In this document: positions 3,139 through 33,597 of the stretch, in pieces
How the letters are laid out: each line of letters begins with the position of its first letter
How positions within the stretch are numbered: position 1 is the stretch's first letter
IMG/VR virus record: IMGVR_UViG_3300030118_007125
Location: 16,657-53,531 of that record
Length of the DNA stretch: 36,875 bases
DNA from: a virus
Strand: one strand, 5' to 3'
Notes under the pieces: generated by a model
Databases searched by the model: none
Told to the model about the DNA's origin: nothing
Seen by the model: only the letters and a program-made list of their open reading frames with translations
Translations under genes and position numbers: made by a program

Positions 3139-3150
3139 CCTATATATATC
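3139..3150 (-). promoter_or_regulatory. Late promoter-like motif
   Basis: The minus strand reads GATATATATAGG, 30 bases before the start at 3109 and directly after the 88-base repeat at 3151-3238. Confidence 0.6.
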
Positions 3151-3238
3151 AAAAAGCTATCCAAAACTTCTCCCGAAAATTTTTTTACAAAAAACCCAAA
3201 TTACTTTCACACACTGATAACTATTTCGTTGCATCTTT
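3151..3238. repeat. 88-base intergenic repeat, copy 1
   Basis: This stretch matches 5067-5154 at roughly nine bases in ten. Both copies sit immediately upstream of a late promoter of a tagged gene. Each contains an AAAACTTC-TCCC-GAAG(T/A) hairpin followed by T's on the plus strand, and the shared words CTTTCACACACTGATAACTA and TTTCGTT. This copy's hairpin has one arm weakened by GAAAAT in place of GAAGTT. Confidence 0.8.
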
Positions 3239-4269: not shown

Positions 4270-5031
4270 TCATCTATGCTTGGTAAGTGCACTAGCATAA
4301 TTATAGAGCACTTGGGCTTCTCTATTTGTAAGAGATTCAATACCTTCTAAGTTTGCCTTATTAGCGATGACTAAAGCTGCATTAAAGCCCAGCTCAGGAC
4401 TCTCGTTACCCGCGGCTTCAATATCCATTACATGCTCATTGAATCGCATGAGCGCTTTATCTAATATTTCTTTAGGCAATCGCCTTTTAGTGTCTAATAT
4501 TTCACTAGTGTCTAATATTTCACTAGAGTCTAATATTTCACTAGAGTCTAATATTTCACTAGCGAAATTTTCATGAGACATCCAATTATTATCCCATTCA
4601 TTCTTAACATTTTCAAATTCATTATATCTATTGCCAAATGTATAATTTTTACTTAACCAATTCTCAACCAATTTAAGTATATACTTGTAATTTTCATTTA
4701 TTTCATTTATCTTGTAATTTTCATTTATTTTATTTATTAATTCTTTGTAATAGCTTCTTCCTTCTTGTCTTCTTAAAAATTCCTCCAAAGCTTGTTTTAA
4801 CAAATCTTCTAGCTTTGGGTTTTTTTCTACAATATCTTCTTTTTCAACTTCAAAAAAAATATCTATTACATTTATTATTAATCCACTAAGCTTTTCTCTT
4901 TCTTCATAAGTCAATTGTTTTAACATTTCTTTAAATTGTTTTAACATTTCTTTAGGAGTCAATTGAGATGACACACTTTCAGAAATTATTGACCTTATAA
5001 TACTTCTTAATCTACTCTCTGTTATAATCAT
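4270..5031 (-). CDS. Tagged late protein with internal short repeats
   Basis: A 253-residue protein with the tag IITESRLRSIIRSIISES. I use the ATG at 5031 (ribosome site AAGGTTAAG). The body is charged and helical and shows three levels of duplication: EMLKQ twice (residues 28-39), INENYK twice (102-116), and four tandem copies of SEILD(S/T) at residues 158-181. The C-terminal third (FNEHVMDIEAAGNES, LGFNAALVIANKA) is more globular. No known domain is recognised. It is the first gene after the divergence region, with a late motif 26 bases upstream. Confidence 0.75.
   Translation of the reverse strand: MIITESRLRSIIRSIISESVSSQLTPKEMLKQFKEMLKQLTYEEREKLSGLIINVIDIFFEVEKEDIVEKNPKLEDLLKQALEEFLRRQEGRSYYKELINKINENYKINEINENYKYILKLVENWLSKNYTFGNRYNEFENVKNEWDNNWMSHENFASEILDSSEILDSSEILDTSEILDTKRRLPKEILDKALMRFNEHVMDIEAAGNESPELGFNAALVIANKANLEGIESLTNREAQVLYNYASALTKHR
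4489..4560 (-). repeat. Four tandem 18-base repeats inside a gene
   Basis: Four head-to-tail copies of an 18-base unit encode SEILD(S/T). Copies differ only at the last codon, so the expansion is recent. The unit length is a multiple of three, so copy number can change without breaking the frame. Confidence 0.9.
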
Positions 5032-5056
5032 ACTTAACCTTCTTTCTATCAATAAC

Positions 5057-5067
5057 TCTATATATTA
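5057..5067 (-). promoter_or_regulatory. Late promoter-like motif
   Basis: The minus strand reads AATATATAGAG, 26 bases before the start at 5031. The following bases (TATTGATAGAAAG) are repeated almost exactly after the plus-strand motif at 14853, ahead of another tagged gene. Confidence 0.65.
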
Positions 5068-5154
5068 AAAAGCTATCCAAAACTTCTCCCGAAGTTTTTT
5101 TCACAAAAAAAACAAATTACTTTCACACACTGATAACTATTTCGTTACGTCTTT
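5067..5154. repeat. 88-base intergenic repeat, copy 2
   Basis: Second copy of the repeat at 3151-3238. It marks the left edge of the divergence region, just upstream of the late promoter of the gene at 4270-5031. Confidence 0.8.
5077..5103 (+). terminator. Hairpin with T-run, possible bidirectional terminator
   Basis: AAAACTTC-TCCC-GAAGTTTT forms a perfect 8-base stem with a 4-base loop, followed by a run of T on the plus strand. Read on the minus strand the loop is GGGA. It lies inside repeat copy 2 and would stop plus-strand transcripts, or insulate the minus-strand late genes from the divergence region. Confidence 0.55.
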
Positions 5155-5204
5155 AATACTACTATATATACTTATTACACTACTCTTATATATAAAACTG
5201 ATTC

Positions 5205-5278
5205 GTGGCCTTAGGGTAACGAAGAAAATACTTTTTAAAGCTGTTCGTGAAGAGAGGAGGGGCGACGACTAAGGCCGC
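5205..5278 (+). other. Long-range stem enclosing a purine-rich loop
   Basis: GTGGCCTTAG at 5205-5214 pairs with CTAAGGCCGC at 5269-5278 (ten base pairs, one wobble). The 54-base loop contains GTTCGTGAAGAGAGGAGGGG. This GC-rich structure stands alone in very AT-rich surroundings. It may be a structured RNA or the 3' end of one, or a DNA cruciform. Confidence 0.5.
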
Positions 5279-5281
5279 GGC

Positions 5282-5311
5282 GTGCACTTTTTACACTGAG
5301 TTTGATATAAT
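5282..5311 (+). promoter_or_regulatory. Early promoter (GTGCAC-18-TATAAT)
   Basis: First of four rightward promoters ahead of the gene at 5786. A transcript from here would begin near 5318, at the GGCCCC hairpin cluster. Confidence 0.65.
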
Positions 5312-5315
5312 ATAT

Positions 5316-5365
5316 AGGCCCCCTAGAGGGGCCCCCTATGAGGGCCCAAAAAGCCCCGGCCCTTT
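5316..5365 (+). ncRNA. GC-rich overlapping hairpins, candidate structured RNA or leader
   Basis: GGCCCC at 5317-5322 pairs with GGGGCC at 5328-5333. GGGCCC at 5329-5334 can instead pair with GGGCCC at 5342-5347, and AGGGCC at 5341-5346 with GGCCCT at 5358-5363. The three stems exclude one another. They follow a promoter by about seven bases, so they would form the 5' end of a transcript. No known RNA family is recognised. Confidence 0.45.
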
Positions 5366-5418
5366 ACACGACGCCAGATTGTATTCTAAATTATTGAAAT
5401 TATTGGACTTTTCGTCGC

Positions 5419-5448
5419 GTGTATAATTTTATTGGATTGAATTATAAT
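5419..5448 (+). promoter_or_regulatory. Early promoter (GTGTAT-18-TATAAT)
   Basis: Second promoter of the array, preceded by TTTTCGTCGC, similar to the TTCGTCAA box at other early promoters. GTGTATAATTTT is the full -35 context found at most sites. Confidence 0.75.
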
Positions 5449-5539
5449 ATATATATAATAAAGGAAATAAAATATAAATTATAAAATAAATTAAATAAAT
5501 AATTTAAAATTATTAATAATATAAATAAAATTATTAAAG

Positions 5540-5568
5540 GTGTATTTTGATAAATAATAAATTATAAT
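5540..5568 (+). promoter_or_regulatory. Early promoter (GTGTAT-17-TATAAT)
   Basis: Third promoter of the array, in the AT-rich leader, preceded by TTAAAG. It lies 99 bases before the fourth. Confidence 0.65.
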
Positions 5569-5638
5569 ATTAATATAATAAAGGAAATAAATTATCAATT
5601 AATATAAATTATAAATTATAAAAGGAATTTATTATAAG

Positions 5639-5667
5639 GTGTATAAAGTATCATTATAAATTATGAT
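5639..5667 (+). promoter_or_regulatory. Early promoter (GTGTAT-17-TATGAT)
   Basis: Fourth and most proximal promoter for the gene at 5786. The -10 box has one change from TATAAT. Transcripts would carry a leader of about 110 bases. Confidence 0.55.
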
Positions 5668-5785
5668 AAATATATAATCGGAAATAATCAATAATCATTA
5701 ATAAATGAAAGGAAAGAAATCTCCCGAGTGCAAATTAAAACCCATCAGTATTACAATATCATGTAATCTAAAATAAGGATAAGCA

Positions 5786-6448
5786 ATGAGACATTCTCAA
5801 ATCCAACAAGTAATTGATACCCCTGAAACACGTGAATTCCTAAAATCATTATTCCAGAAAAATCTGGAGGAAGGAACCGATAAAACCAGTGTCCTAAGAT
5901 TCGGCGAAGCCTTGGTTGATATCTTGAAATCGGAAGTCGGATCATATCGAGGGAAGCGTGCATCGTCCGGAGGCGACACGACGTGGAGATCAGAATTGAA
6001 ATCAATGTTCTCGGGAAGAGGTCGACAATGGATAAAAGTTACACATGAATTCATCCAACCATACCTGGATAAATTTGATGAGGATGGGATTGACACGAAA
6101 GATTATCGATCCTGGATTGAATCCAAAGGACACGCTTGGGTTCGGTTTAATGGGCCTCGAATCCATAACGGTGTAAATTCTGGGGGATTTGAAATAAGGA
6201 CATCAGGATCCAAAATTGATCATCCAAAACAGTTGTGTTATATCCCATCTGATGAATTGATCGAAGATAAAATTGATCGATTACCTGGTACACCGTTTTC
6301 AATGGGTTTGGAAATCATATCAAAATCAGATCCAGAACCTGAGATTCAGGAAAAATCTGAAAATGACAATAATCCTGAAGAAACAATTGAAGACACGCCG
6401 AATGAAGAAATCATCGAGGAAATCGAGGATATCCATAGAGAGGTGTAA
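5786..6448 (+). CDS. FSGRG-family protein 1 (unknown function)
   Basis: A 220-residue protein. Residues about 70-185 form a domain seen in four other proteins of this window (12883, 30740, 33019, 34310), with FSGRGxxW, GHAWVRFNGPR, FEIRTSGSKIDHPKQL and GTP near its end. It is closest to the 12883 protein. A helical N-terminal segment precedes the domain, and the last 45 residues are strongly acidic. A compact aromatic/basic domain with an acidic tail recalls SSB and gp32 proteins, so nucleic acid binding is a guess. The gene is GC-richer than its surroundings and has four promoters, so high expression is likely. The ATG at 5786 has ribosome site AAGGATAAGCA. Confidence 0.85.
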   Translation: MRHSQIQQVIDTPETREFLKSLFQKNLEEGTDKTSVLRFGEALVDILKSEVGSYRGKRASSGGDTTWRSELKSMFSGRGRQWIKVTHEFIQPYLDKFDEDGIDTKDYRSWIESKGHAWVRFNGPRIHNGVNSGGFEIRTSGSKIDHPKQLCYIPSDELIEDKIDRLPGTPFSMGLEIISKSDPEPEIQEKSENDNNPEETIEDTPNEEIIEEIEDIHREV

Positions 6449-8349: not shown

Positions 8350-8405
8350 GGCTCATCACCTAATAAGTGATTCGAGTCGCAATCCTTTGATTCGTCAACT
8401 GTGAC
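8350..8405 (+). repeat. Pre-promoter repeat (GGCTCATCA ... GATTCGTCA), copy 2
   Basis: Second copy of the element at 7318-7373, again ending just before an early promoter. GATT and AATC segments around CGAGTCGC can form a short stem. Confidence 0.65.
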
Positions 8406-8434
8406 GTGTATTATTTTAATATATTAATTATAAT
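8406..8434 (+). promoter_or_regulatory. Early promoter (GTGTAT-17-TATAAT)
   Basis: Precedes the gene at 8516. The downstream leader TATATAATTAATAAAAT is repeated after several other promoters. Confidence 0.7.
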
Positions 8435-8728: not shown

Positions 8729-8736
8729 TAATTACT

Positions 8737-8764
8737 TGAAGTTATAAGACTTCGATTCGTCAAA
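8737..8764 (+). other. Hairpin plus TTCGTCAA box
   Basis: GAAGT at 8738-8742 pairs with ACTTC at 8749-8753, directly followed by CGATTCGTCAA, just before an early promoter. The same arrangement with different stem bases is found at 10744, 11148 and 11878. Confidence 0.5.
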
Positions 8765-8771
8765 CCCCTAT

Positions 8772-8801
8772 GTGTATAATTTTAATTAATTGGATTATAA
8801 T
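8772..8801 (+). promoter_or_regulatory. Early promoter (GTGTAT-18-TATAAT)
   Basis: A full-consensus copy (GTGTATAATTTT, then TGGATTATAATAT), nearly identical to the one at 11182. Drives the gene at 8869. Confidence 0.8.
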
Positions 8802-10256: not shown

Positions 10257-10260
10257 AATA

Positions 10261-10290
10261 TTTGAGTCGCAAGGCTCTGAATCGTCAACT
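10261..10290 (+). other. Hairpin plus TCGTCAA box
   Basis: TTTGAGTCGCAAGGCTC can fold (GAG with CTC), followed by TGAATCGTCAA, five bases before an early promoter. Confidence 0.4.
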
Positions 10291-10295
10291 CTGGT

Positions 10296-10325
10296 GTGTA
10301 TAATTTTATTAAAATGAGTTATAAT
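10296..10325 (+). promoter_or_regulatory. Early promoter (GTGTAT-18-TATAAT)
   Basis: Drives the gene at 10396. The leader TATTTATATAATTAATAAAA matches those after 8801 and 10813. Confidence 0.75.
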
Positions 10326-10720: not shown

Positions 10721-10783
10721 TTTTAACCACTCATCTCATATAATGACTCGATGCTTCAACGCATCGCATCGTCAACTCCTTGT
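10721..10783 (+). repeat. 63-base repeat with hairpin, copy 1
   Basis: TTTTAACCACT, then TATAATGACTCG, then the hairpin CGATGC (10749-10754) with GCATCG (10761-10766), then CATCGTCAACTCCTT, ending at an early promoter. 11850-11912 is nearly identical. Confidence 0.8.
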
Positions 10784-10813
10784 GTGTAATATTTCATCAA
10801 AATAAGTTATAAT
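10784..10813 (+). promoter_or_regulatory. Early promoter (GTGTAA-18-TATAAT)
   Basis: Drives the gene at 10879. The region just upstream is the first copy of the 63-base repeat. Confidence 0.7.
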
Positions 10814-11142: not shown

Positions 11143-11175
11143 GTCTCATCGATGCAACGCATCGATTCATCAACC
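11143..11175 (+). other. Perfect hairpin plus TTCATCAA box
   Basis: ATCGATGC (11148-11155) and GCATCGAT (11159-11166) form an eight-base stem with a three-base loop, followed by TCATCAACCCC and an early promoter. Confidence 0.55.
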
Positions 11176-11181
11176 CCTTGT

Positions 11182-11211
11182 GTGTATAATTTTAATAAAT
11201 TGGATTATAAT
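11182..11211 (+). promoter_or_regulatory. Early promoter (GTGTAT-18-TATAAT)
   Basis: Consensus copy. Drives the set 11241-11855. Confidence 0.8.
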
Positions 11212-11855: not shown

Positions 11856-11912
11856 CCACTTATCTACTATAATGACTCGATGCTTCAACGCATCGCATCG
11901 TCAACTCCTTGC
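11850..11912 (+). repeat. 63-base repeat with hairpin, copy 2
   Basis: Near-identical to 10721-10783, including the CGATGC/GCATCG hairpin (11878-11895) and ATCGTCAACTCCTT, again abutting an early promoter. The repeat overlaps the end of the peptide gene at 11772. Confidence 0.8.
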
Positions 11913-11942
11913 GTGTACTTTTTTAATCAAATGAGTTATAAT
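11913..11942 (+). promoter_or_regulatory. Early promoter (GTGTAC-18-TATAAT)
   Basis: Drives 11972-12515. The -35 ends in C where most copies have A or T. Confidence 0.7.
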
Positions 11943-12882: not shown

Positions 12883-13581
12883 ATGGAAAACTCAAATGTT
12901 CAAACACAAAATCAAAACGAGGACACAATGTCTCAACAAGATTTAATCGTTCAAATGTTCCAATCCTTTCTTACTGATGGCGGTTTACCCAAAGTCACAG
13001 ACTTCAAACGTCACATCGACTCTCTAATCAAAGACAATGTTAAACCACTTTGCTTCAGATCCGGCAAGTCTCCTGATGGCGATGATTGGCGATCTCAACT
13101 CAAAGCCCGATTCTCTGGTCGCGGAGCTAAATGGGTTATTGTCCCACTCAAAGAAATCAACCCAACTATCTCAGAATTCGAATCTCAAGGCATTGATTGC
13201 AATGATTATAAAACATTTGTCGAAGCTAATGGCGCAGCTTGGTTACGATTTGCTGGTCCTCGCATTGATTCTCAAGGTAACCAAGCAGCAGCTTTCGAAG
13301 TTCGAACTGGTGGCTCAAAGATCGATCACCCTAAACAACTACACTACATCCCAGTCGATCAACTCGATGAAACAATTCGTCCCCTCGGCGGAACTCCTCA
13401 CTCTCTAAAACTCGAAGGCCAAGAAGAGAAATCAGAAACAAAAGATCTCACCGAAACTGAAGTCTCTACAGATGATACAGAAACTATCAACACTGAAGAG
13501 ACTTATACCGAAGAACTCGTCACAGAAGAAGATCTATTAAATTATGAATTCGCAGATCTTATGAACGACGAAACAGCTTAA
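12883..13581 (+). CDS. FSGRG-family protein 2 (unknown function)
   Basis: A 232-residue protein closest to the one at 5786. The domain spans about residues 70-185: WRSQLKARFSGRGAKW, GAAWLRFAGPRID, FEVRTGGSKIDHPKQLHY, LGGTPHSL. The N-terminal 60 residues are a different helical segment (a Gln/Asn-rich start, then QDLIVQMFQSFL), and the last 45 residues are acidic and Thr/Glu-rich. Codon use is C-rich compared with family members at 30740 and 33019. Strong ribosome site (AAAAAAGGAAATCAAA). A DNA- or RNA-binding role with a protein-docking tail is possible but not shown. Confidence 0.85.
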   Translation: MENSNVQTQNQNEDTMSQQDLIVQMFQSFLTDGGLPKVTDFKRHIDSLIKDNVKPLCFRSGKSPDGDDWRSQLKARFSGRGAKWVIVPLKEINPTISEFESQGIDCNDYKTFVEANGAAWLRFAGPRIDSQGNQAAAFEVRTGGSKIDHPKQLHYIPVDQLDETIRPLGGTPHSLKLEGQEEKSETKDLTETEVSTDDTETINTEETYTEELVTEEDLLNYEFADLMNDETA

Positions 13582-14130: not shown

Positions 14131-14303
14131 AACAAAAGAAAGCGCAATTTAACTATATGAACCTTTTCGTCTTCTTCTTCTTGTTCATTGTACTCCCTAC
14201 AATCAGCATAATCGCTCATCCCGATGAGTTCGTACCATACGCTATCTTCATAATAGTCGTTGCTCTCGTCTATATTGAAAGTCTAAGTCATAGAAATGAT
14301 TAG
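14118..14303 (+). CDS. Two-helix membrane protein, 61 residues
   Basis: It overlaps the end of the gene at 13903. Two hydrophobic helices (MNLFVFFFLFIVLPTISII and FVPYAIFIIVVALVYI) are joined by a short polar loop (AHPDEF). Alternative start at ATG 14157. This is the last gene before the composition changes from C-rich to purine-rich. Confidence 0.6.
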   Translation: MSTIKQKKAQFNYMNLFVFFFLFIVLPTISIIAHPDEFVPYAIFIIVVALVYIESLSHRND

Positions 14304-14863: not shown

Positions 14864-14887
14864 ATATTGATAGAAAGAGAGTGTAGA

Positions 14888-15433
14888 GTGATTATAACTG
14901 AGAGCAAGTTGAAGAGAATGATAAGAGAAGCTTTGATTGAAAGTAATAGTGAGCAAAAAAACATAGGTAAAGAACATAAAAAGAAGTATGTAGATGAAGA
15001 GTTTAAGTATACAGCTGAAGCGAATGCATTAAAAGAAGAGTTAGAAAGTAAGTATGTTTTCTCAGTATTTTATTTTTACGAACCAGAAATATTTAAAGAT
15101 TCTGAAGAATCTGAAGAAAATGAGATGCTAGTTACATTAATTAATTTAAAAAATCGTGTCCAAAGTTTTGAGGAATTTCCAGATAAAGTAGAACTTGAAG
15201 ATCTTGTAATGACTGACTCTTATAGTTTAGGAGATAAGAATGAGAGAAAGTTAATGAAAGATATAAATAAAAAAGGTGAATTTGAAGTAGAATCGTCTAT
15301 AGAGGGTGAGTATCCTGAAAAGCATTATTATGGTTTTATTGATATTAATGGAAAGAAGCAAAGAATAATTTATAAGCATGCTATTGGTGGATTTGTTTAT
15401 TATTATTTGTTTTCTAAAGATGTTTTAAAATGA
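14888..15433 (+). CDS. Tagged late protein on the plus strand
   Basis: A 181-residue protein with the tag IITESKLKRMIREALIES. I start it at the GTG at 14888, which lines up exactly with the ATG of the tagged gene at 4270-5031; an upstream ATG at 14867 lies inside the shared leader. The body is highly acidic and lysine-rich (YEPEIFKDSEESEENEMLV), with a strand-rich C-terminus ending YKHAIGGFVYYYLF. No domain is recognised. Its promoter, tag and leader match the minus-strand cluster, though its position does not. Confidence 0.75.
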   Translation: MIITESKLKRMIREALIESNSEQKNIGKEHKKKYVDEEFKYTAEANALKEELESKYVFSVFYFYEPEIFKDSEESEENEMLVTLINLKNRVQSFEEFPDKVELEDLVMTDSYSLGDKNERKLMKDINKKGEFEVESSIEGEYPEKHYYGFIDINGKKQRIIYKHAIGGFVYYYLFSKDVLK

Positions 15434-30739: not shown

Positions 30740-31285
30740 GTGGATATTAAAAGCAAAATTAAATTAATCCATAAAGGCAGAGGTAATTCTTGGCTTAAAG
30801 TAAAAAATACTTCTGAAGTCTATCAGCGAATTATTTCTAAAATATCAAATCTGGATTCTTCAAATATTATTACGTTCTTTGAAAAAGAGGGTTTTGCATG
30901 GATAAGATTTTCAAAAGTAAATAAAGATAACACAGCAAAATATGAAATTAGATATAGAGGATCTAAACTAGATCATCCTGACTGTTCTATAAACTTAACT
31001 TATGACGAAATAAAAAGTTTAAGCCTGTTAGGAAACACACCTGTTAAGTTGTTTCTTGAAACTAATGAAAAAAAGAAAAACATTGTAGAAAAATTAAAAT
31101 CAGTTAATGTTAAAATAAACGGCAATAAAAAAATCAAAAAGGAAAGTGTAGTTAATAATCATGAAGTAGTTGCTGAAATTGATTATAACTCAATTAAAGA
31201 TATAAAACCAAAGAGAACTTCTAAGCAAGAACTTGAAATGTGGTTTAAGTGGTGTAAGTTAAATAACATAGATATAGAGGAATAA
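30740..31285 (+). CDS. FSGRG-family protein 3
   Basis: A 181-residue protein with GTG start and ribosome site AGGAG. The domain is at the very N-terminus: IHKGRGNSWLKV, GFAWIRFSKVN, YEIRYRGSKLDHPDC, LGNTPVKLFLE. A lysine-rich linker (VKINGNKKIKKES) and a C-terminal motif (KRTSKQELEMWFKWCKLNN) follow in place of the acidic tails of 5786 and 12883. AT-rich codon use matches its neighbours. Confidence 0.8.
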   Translation: MDIKSKIKLIHKGRGNSWLKVKNTSEVYQRIISKISNLDSSNIITFFEKEGFAWIRFSKVNKDNTAKYEIRYRGSKLDHPDCSINLTYDEIKSLSLLGNTPVKLFLETNEKKKNIVEKLKSVNVKINGNKKIKKESVVNNHEVVAEIDYNSIKDIKPKRTSKQELEMWFKWCKLNNIDIEE

Positions 31286-33018: not shown

Positions 33019-33597
33019 ATGAATATTAATGACTTAGTTGATGTTGAAATTAAAAGTATTGTTAGAAAGTTAAATGAAAACAATATTATTAAGAACAGTG
33101 ATATTAAAAGAATAATAAATAACTCTGTATTAAAAGCTTTATGTATTCATGATCCTGCAACTATAGAAAGTATTGACAAGATCAAATCAAAATTTTCAGG
33201 TAAAGGTAATGTATGGATAAAGCTAACGCCAGGAAATAGTATATGGGATAAAGCTATTCATACATTAGAATTAAATTCAAAAAATACTTTTTGTTTTAAC
33301 TTAAAAGACATGTTTGAAGAAAATAAAATAGGTTGGATGAGATTTAGTAATGTCAACAAAAAACAAGCAACGTTTCATATAAGACATATGGGTTCAAAAT
33401 TTGACGAACATATTAAATGTTATCTTAATCATGAAGAAGCAATTAACTCAACTTTGTTATATGGCAATCCTCATAAATTAGGATTAGAAAAAGGCAATTT
33501 CAAAGAAGAAGAAAACAAAAAAGAAATTATTGATATACCTGTATCTAAAGAAGAATTAAGTAAATTTGGCATACAAACTTTAGAGGATCTACTTTGA
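33019..33597 (+). CDS. FSGRG-family protein 4
   Basis: A 192-residue protein. Domain: IKSKFSGKGNVWIKL, IGWMRFSNVN, FHIRHMGSKFDEHIKCY, YGNPHKLGLE. DHPKQ is replaced by DEHIK. A helical N-terminus (VEIKSIVRKLNENNI) and a C-terminal acidic linker with PVSKEELSKFGIQ resemble the ends of the 5786 and 30740 proteins. It overlaps the next gene by TTGA. Confidence 0.8.
   Translation: MNINDLVDVEIKSIVRKLNENNIIKNSDIKRIINNSVLKALCIHDPATIESIDKIKSKFSGKGNVWIKLTPGNSIWDKAIHTLELNSKNTFCFNLKDMFEENKIGWMRFSNVNKKQATFHIRHMGSKFDEHIKCYLNHEEAINSTLLYGNPHKLGLEKGNFKEEENKKEIIDIPVSKEELSKFGIQTLEDLL

Follow-up and report, generated by a model that had tools for sequence, protein, structure and literature searches.

A predicted divergent transcription-control hub with stacked T4-early-like promoters in a large uncultured phage

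In phage T4, early promoters carry the element GTTTAC in the interval from -36 to -31; a G at -33 is preferred in some related phages (PMC1524935). Two of the T4 replication origins, oriF and oriG, require no more than a promoter with an A+T-rich unwinding element within about 100 bp downstream (PMC3016281), and in jumbo phages such as AR9, opposed early and late genes have control regions between them (PMC5312081). The locus considered here lies in a 36,875-nt stretch of DNA (referred to below as the window, and the source of all coordinates unless otherwise noted), which comprises bases 16657-53531 of the 53.5-kb virus record IMGVR_UViG_3300030118_007125. We interpret it, with a probability of roughly 80%, as the central hub from which a large T4-type (myovirus-like) phage controls divergent transcription, built on a stacked array of T4-early-like promoters. 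That reading draws on sequence statistics for the promoter family (one-sided in its distribution, and stacked in tandem in two phages), for the conserved block, and for the extremes of base composition. On the rightward side, five stacked early-family promoters would repeatedly load RNA polymerase onto the first early operon, while on the leftward side a repeated leader/promoter module would drive the leftward genes.

Phage contigs and gene layout around the divergence

The record is a fragment (53.5 kb) from a large tailed phage that is uncultured. To the left of the window it encodes PhoH and an XPD-like helicase, for which the best matches are found mostly in large phages (Tunturi_5, Bacillus phage G) at approximately 31-33% identity; annotated phage records gave no DNA-level match to window positions 1-25000. 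The same divergence region is present in one relative, IMGVR_UViG_3300021378_000009 (102.5 kb), in which a major head protein, portal, terminase, and baseplate protein are all encoded on the leftward strand, and the leftward genes thus include structural ones. Scans with the first rightward protein, its paralogue, the conserved block, the P1 core (all described below), and a spaced pattern led to this one relative only, five additional matches to the spaced pattern being rejected as chance. A search with PhoH yielded ten more contigs, none of which spans the divergence (one, G004, stops just short of it), and the genome contigs searched for the region gave no match. Because the whole region is present in a single relative, conservation rests on two sequences, and each statement about it below is a comparison of our contig with that relative; in local alignment the two phages are approximately 66% identical across the divergence.

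A gap of 730 bases without a long ORF separates the leftward from the rightward genes. A preliminary description of this DNA, made by a model from the letters and predicted ORFs alone, proposed that late leftward genes here give way to early rightward genes behind tandem promoters. The relative's leftward structural genes agree with that proposal, as does a predicted rightward promoter family that starts exactly here in both contigs. Taken as a whole, the observations in that description were largely real, and its interpretation is upheld only in part.

Small ORFs make up the rightward arm, and for most of them no relatives are known. The first of its genes (5786-6448, plus strand) encodes a 220-aa protein with an acidic C-terminal tail that belongs to no known family; three paralogues (12883-13581, 30740-31285, and 33019-33597) bring the group to four proteins. 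Of these four, the two encoded closest to the divergence carry long acidic tails at the C-terminus and have counterparts in the relative. Those tested gave no convincing match in Pfam, NCBIfam, the PDB, predicted viral structures, or phage records, and assignment of a function to the first gene by its fold was abandoned, as the model was of low confidence (mean pLDDT 66) and had no match. We note in addition phage-borne pyrimidine-pathway genes on L009 (positions 11664-14394 of L009), encoding OMP decarboxylase and dihydroorotate dehydrogenase, together with a weak amidohydrolase match that is possibly a dihydroorotase. Near window position 14300, the GC skew leaps from about -0.28 to +0.79 with no change in gene direction, and a similar leap occurs at approximately 97 kb in the relative.

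Promoters and conserved sequence at the divergence

An A+T-rich motif found at 5419 recurs along the rightward arm. We scanned both strands of both contigs for the pattern GTGTA-N17..19-TATAAT and compared the counts with those in Markov-shuffled sequence. Exact matches number 19 on the plus strand and 0 on the minus strand of our record, and 22 and 0 in the relative, against chance expectations of 0.32 and 0.52, respectively (maximum 2). All 19 of our sites, and 21 of the relative's 22, lie at or to the right of the divergence. With the stray site excluded, the spacer between GTGTA and TATAAT is 19 nt long in 29 of 40 sites and 18 nt in the other 11; most family sites share an ATrTAAt around the expected start, both phages have GTGTAw as the -35 core, and, leaving aside the stacked sites, most are followed by an ORF at a distance of 21-151 nt. 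The promoters named in the preliminary description are real in the sense of a phage motif that recurs. A generic TTGACA/TATAAT scan recovered none of them, because their -35 element is not TTGACA. The family appears to be phage specific and of sigma70 type (the sigma factor is our guess), with GTGTAw at -36 and TATAAT at -12. The rightward promoters are presumably recognized by the host RNA polymerase and active early, and their start sites are predicted ones.

Two further repeated features of the rightward arm deserve mention. Many of its promoters have a small hairpin upstream that ends in (A/T)TCGTCAAC, in place of which the promoters of the relative have TACGTCATC upstream; this hairpin-plus-promoter cassette is repeated between early genes (window positions 8370-8410, 8735-8775, 10260-10300, 10745-10790, 11160-11185, and 11875-11915), with the copies at 10745 and 11875 being nearly identical. 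The leader motif TTTTAACTGCTTTTGAAAGGTTT, located immediately 5′ of start codons, constitutes a second repeated expression signal, with two copies in the window (15457 and 15727) and seven in the relative (98.6-102.1 kb).

At the divergence itself, family sites are stacked: when relaxed matches are included, there are five in our phage and four in the relative. The four tandem promoters initially described here are real family sites, but the count is five, all on the plus strand. P1 (5282-5311) reads GTGCA-N19-TATAAT with the extended -10 element TTTGATATAAT; its CACTGAGTTTGATATAATATA (21 nt) recurs unchanged in the relative, there with GTGTA as the -35 element. P2 (5419-5448, GTGTA-N19-TATAAT) and P3 (5540-5568, GTGTA-N18-TATAAT) are exact members, P4 (5639-5667, GTGTA-N18-TATGAT) has one mismatch, and the weaker P5 (5728-5757, GTGCA-N19-TACAAT) is a relaxed match for which the relative has GTGTA-N19-TACAAT at the corresponding position. 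The GTGCA carried at -35 by both P1 and P5 in the window phage counts against the hub reading.

Upstream of P1 lies a conserved non-coding block (5203-5246; TCGTGGnnTTAGGGTAACGAAGAAAATACTTTTwAAAGyTGT), present in a single copy on our contig and on the relative. The alignment contains identical runs of 25 nt (5211-5235) and 21 nt (5294-5314); when its columns were permuted, the longest run reached 25 nt in 2 of 5000 trials, and the second longest reached 21 nt in 0 of 3000. A coding explanation was rejected, as the frame from 5199 suggested by translated-search alignment has stop codons in both phages (by eye). We likewise rejected a conserved RNA structure: of the ten-pair long-range stem originally reported for this segment (arms 5204-5214 and 5269-5279, plus strand; CGTGGCCTTAG/CTAAGGCCGCG), the paired arms are present, but the stem does not outperform dinucleotide shuffles (z -1.1), and the predicted fold of the relative lacks it. 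Because the relative's sequence does not form the stem, it is sequence, not pairing, that appears to be constrained at 5204-5279. We infer that the block is most likely bound by a putative regulator or initiator that would balance transcription in both directions.

On the leftward side, a module at 5057-5154 (minus strand, TTCGGGAGAAGTTTTGGATAGCTTTTTAATATATAGA) stands upstream of the gene at 4270-5031. It had been noted as an 88-base repeat with a terminator-like hairpin; the repeat is genuine, extending over approximately 99 bases with 91% identity to 3140-3238, but an intrinsic terminator at 5080-5101 is not borne out, since only the 5074 copy has a perfect hairpin; those of the second copy, the relative, and G004 are imperfect (pairing judged by eye). 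The hairpin is in fact the almost symmetrical core of the module, TTCGGGAGAAnTTTTGGATAnCTTTTTGATATATA, of which there are two copies on our record (the second at 3140-3238), one in the relative, and three on G004, with one to three mismatches; all except the relative's copy precede genes with products beginning MRITESRLRRIIR or similar. The element TATATAGA occurs to the left of the divergence 10 times on the minus strand versus once on the plus strand. We take the 88-base repeat to be a leftward leader or promoter module, and not a conserved terminator. A possible second leftward -10 region, weak, is found at 5182-5196 (minus strand; TTATATATAAGAGTA, conserved as TnTATAnATAAGAGTAG in the relative). 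As a separate observation, an N-terminus resembling M(R/K)ITESRLRRIIR is common to several proteins (window 4270-5031 and 14867-15433, L035 on G004, and 84.5-87.7 kb in the relative); five or more of this type are clustered on G004, several of them behind the same leftward leader module, and the sequence could be a capsid-targeting tag, as in T4 internal proteins.

Composition extremes, the P1 leader, and the question of an origin

The segment at 5318-5377 is the most G+C-rich 60-base stretch of the 53.5-kb contig (68%, versus a mean of 28%), and that at 5423-5722, which spans P2-P4, is both its most A+T-rich (90%) and its least stable 300 bases as a duplex. In the relative too, the most G+C-rich 60 bases adjoin the most A+T-rich and least stable 300 bases at the equivalent locus. 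The reported GGCCCC/GGGCCC hairpins are present at 5317-5364, in a plus-strand cluster (5317-5366) that would form the 5′ end of the P1 transcript. The three hairpins are not all mutually exclusive, as claimed: in the predicted structure the first forms together with the third, and only the middle one is in competition with both (by eye). It is quite improbable, in our view, that the G+C palindromes and the A+T-rich stretch are a mere structural or mutational oddity and the promoters the sole function; although the sequence of the G+C cluster is not conserved and, in the window phage, the hairpins exceed shuffles to a moderate degree, the two extremes adjoin at the equivalent locus in phages that are only about 66% alike there.

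The position of the G+C segment bears on a second alternative, namely that transcription from P1 yields a small regulatory RNA or an attenuator, whose alternative 5′ G+C hairpins would decide between stopping within approximately 50 nt and reading on into the early operon. In both phages the start of the segment approximately coincides with the +1 expected for P1, so that the predicted RNA would start with strong hairpins, which fold better than most shuffles (z -2.0 in ours and -3.0 in the relative, with 5 of 200 and 2 of 200 shuffles folding as well); competing pairings exist, and P1 alone among the family promoters has such a start. However, no strong U-tract follows the hairpins, no plus-strand terminators were called in either phage, and transcripts from P2-P5 downstream would bypass any attenuation. 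Rfam gave neither a gathering-score match nor a convincing weaker one in the region (the window's only matches are three tRNAs located elsewhere). The leader hairpin sequences are unrelated between the two phages, which are too different here for a count of covariation, and the longer stem is not conserved in the relative. A regulatory RNA at the P1 start is thus weakly supported by the sequence, and we consider the attenuator unlikely. Under the preferred reading of a transcription-control hub, protection, pausing, and attenuation are all possible roles for the leader hairpins, and the one at the P1 transcript start most likely protects or pauses the 5′ end.

The A+T-rich stretch raises a third alternative, that replication, too, starts in this region, from an origin of the T4 oriF/oriG type: a transcript from P1 or P2 would form an R-loop in the stretch and be trimmed to a primer for a rightward leading strand. 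The arrangement of a promoter with an A+T-rich unwinding element downstream is seen here in P1/P2 and the least stable 300 bases, which directly follow these promoters at the equivalent locus in both phages; the unique conserved block lies upstream of the stretch, and the cumulative G-C minimum falls at about the divergence in both contigs. These observations must be weighed against the makeup of the stretch, which consists of stacked A+T-rich promoters and would therefore be expected to have low stability without an origin; indeed, other family promoters rank among the next least stable 100-base windows. The overall skew, moreover, largely tracks gene orientation, and its patterns at third positions and fourfold sites are inconsistent, so that we rejected skew as evidence for an origin; nor was an initiator gene or a clear iteron array recognized. 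This anatomy is compatible with an origin, as it is with a dense promoter array, and we regard an origin as rather unlikely. Rather doubtful, too, is the more elaborate proposal of a new large-phage lineage that combines an early-promoter stack with an R-loop origin, with a priming or leader RNA that begins in a G+C-rich hairpin whose position and type, though not its sequence, are preserved, and with a unique conserved 44-base block that recruits the initiator.

Comparison with known systems

The predicted opposition of early and late genes, with a control region between them, recalls jumbo phages such as AR9 (PMC5312081). The early promoters of AR9, however, have the form AAATATATATTAT-N6-G and are read by a virion RNA polymerase, whereas the motif described here is sigma70-like; no phage RNA polymerase was seen in a non-exhaustive scan of approximately 50 proteins. 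As in T4 oriF and oriG, a promoter here has an A+T-rich stretch that melts readily on its downstream side (PMC3016281). The locus differs from these origins in the G+C hairpin cluster at the RNA start and in its stack of early-type GTGTA promoters, T4 R-loop origins having a single middle-mode (MotA box) promoter. Should the region double as an origin, the earliest transcripts of large phages would be tied to their first replication fork, as happens in T4.

There is likeness, too, to the early promoters of T4-type phages (T4, RB49, RB43, and Aeh1), which have a phage-specific -35 element at -36 to -31 and TATAAT at -12 to -7 (PMC1524935) and, like the family described here, are numerous, with small early ORFs immediately downstream of each copy. 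GTGTAw lies at the same distance from TATAAT as the T4 early -35 element, so that a TATAAT -10 is combined with a phage -35-like motif at the T4 spacing. The core itself is GTGTA(A/T) in both phages rather than GTTTAC or the variants with G at -33, and our family further differs in the ATrTAAt around the predicted start and in the stacking of several copies at one divergence. We therefore file it as a variant that would work like the T4 early promoters, and not as a member of that class. An early-promoter code can in this way be proposed from sequence alone for a phage group without a cultured member in the collections searched, placing the start of its early program at this divergence, with approximately 40 predicted start sites.
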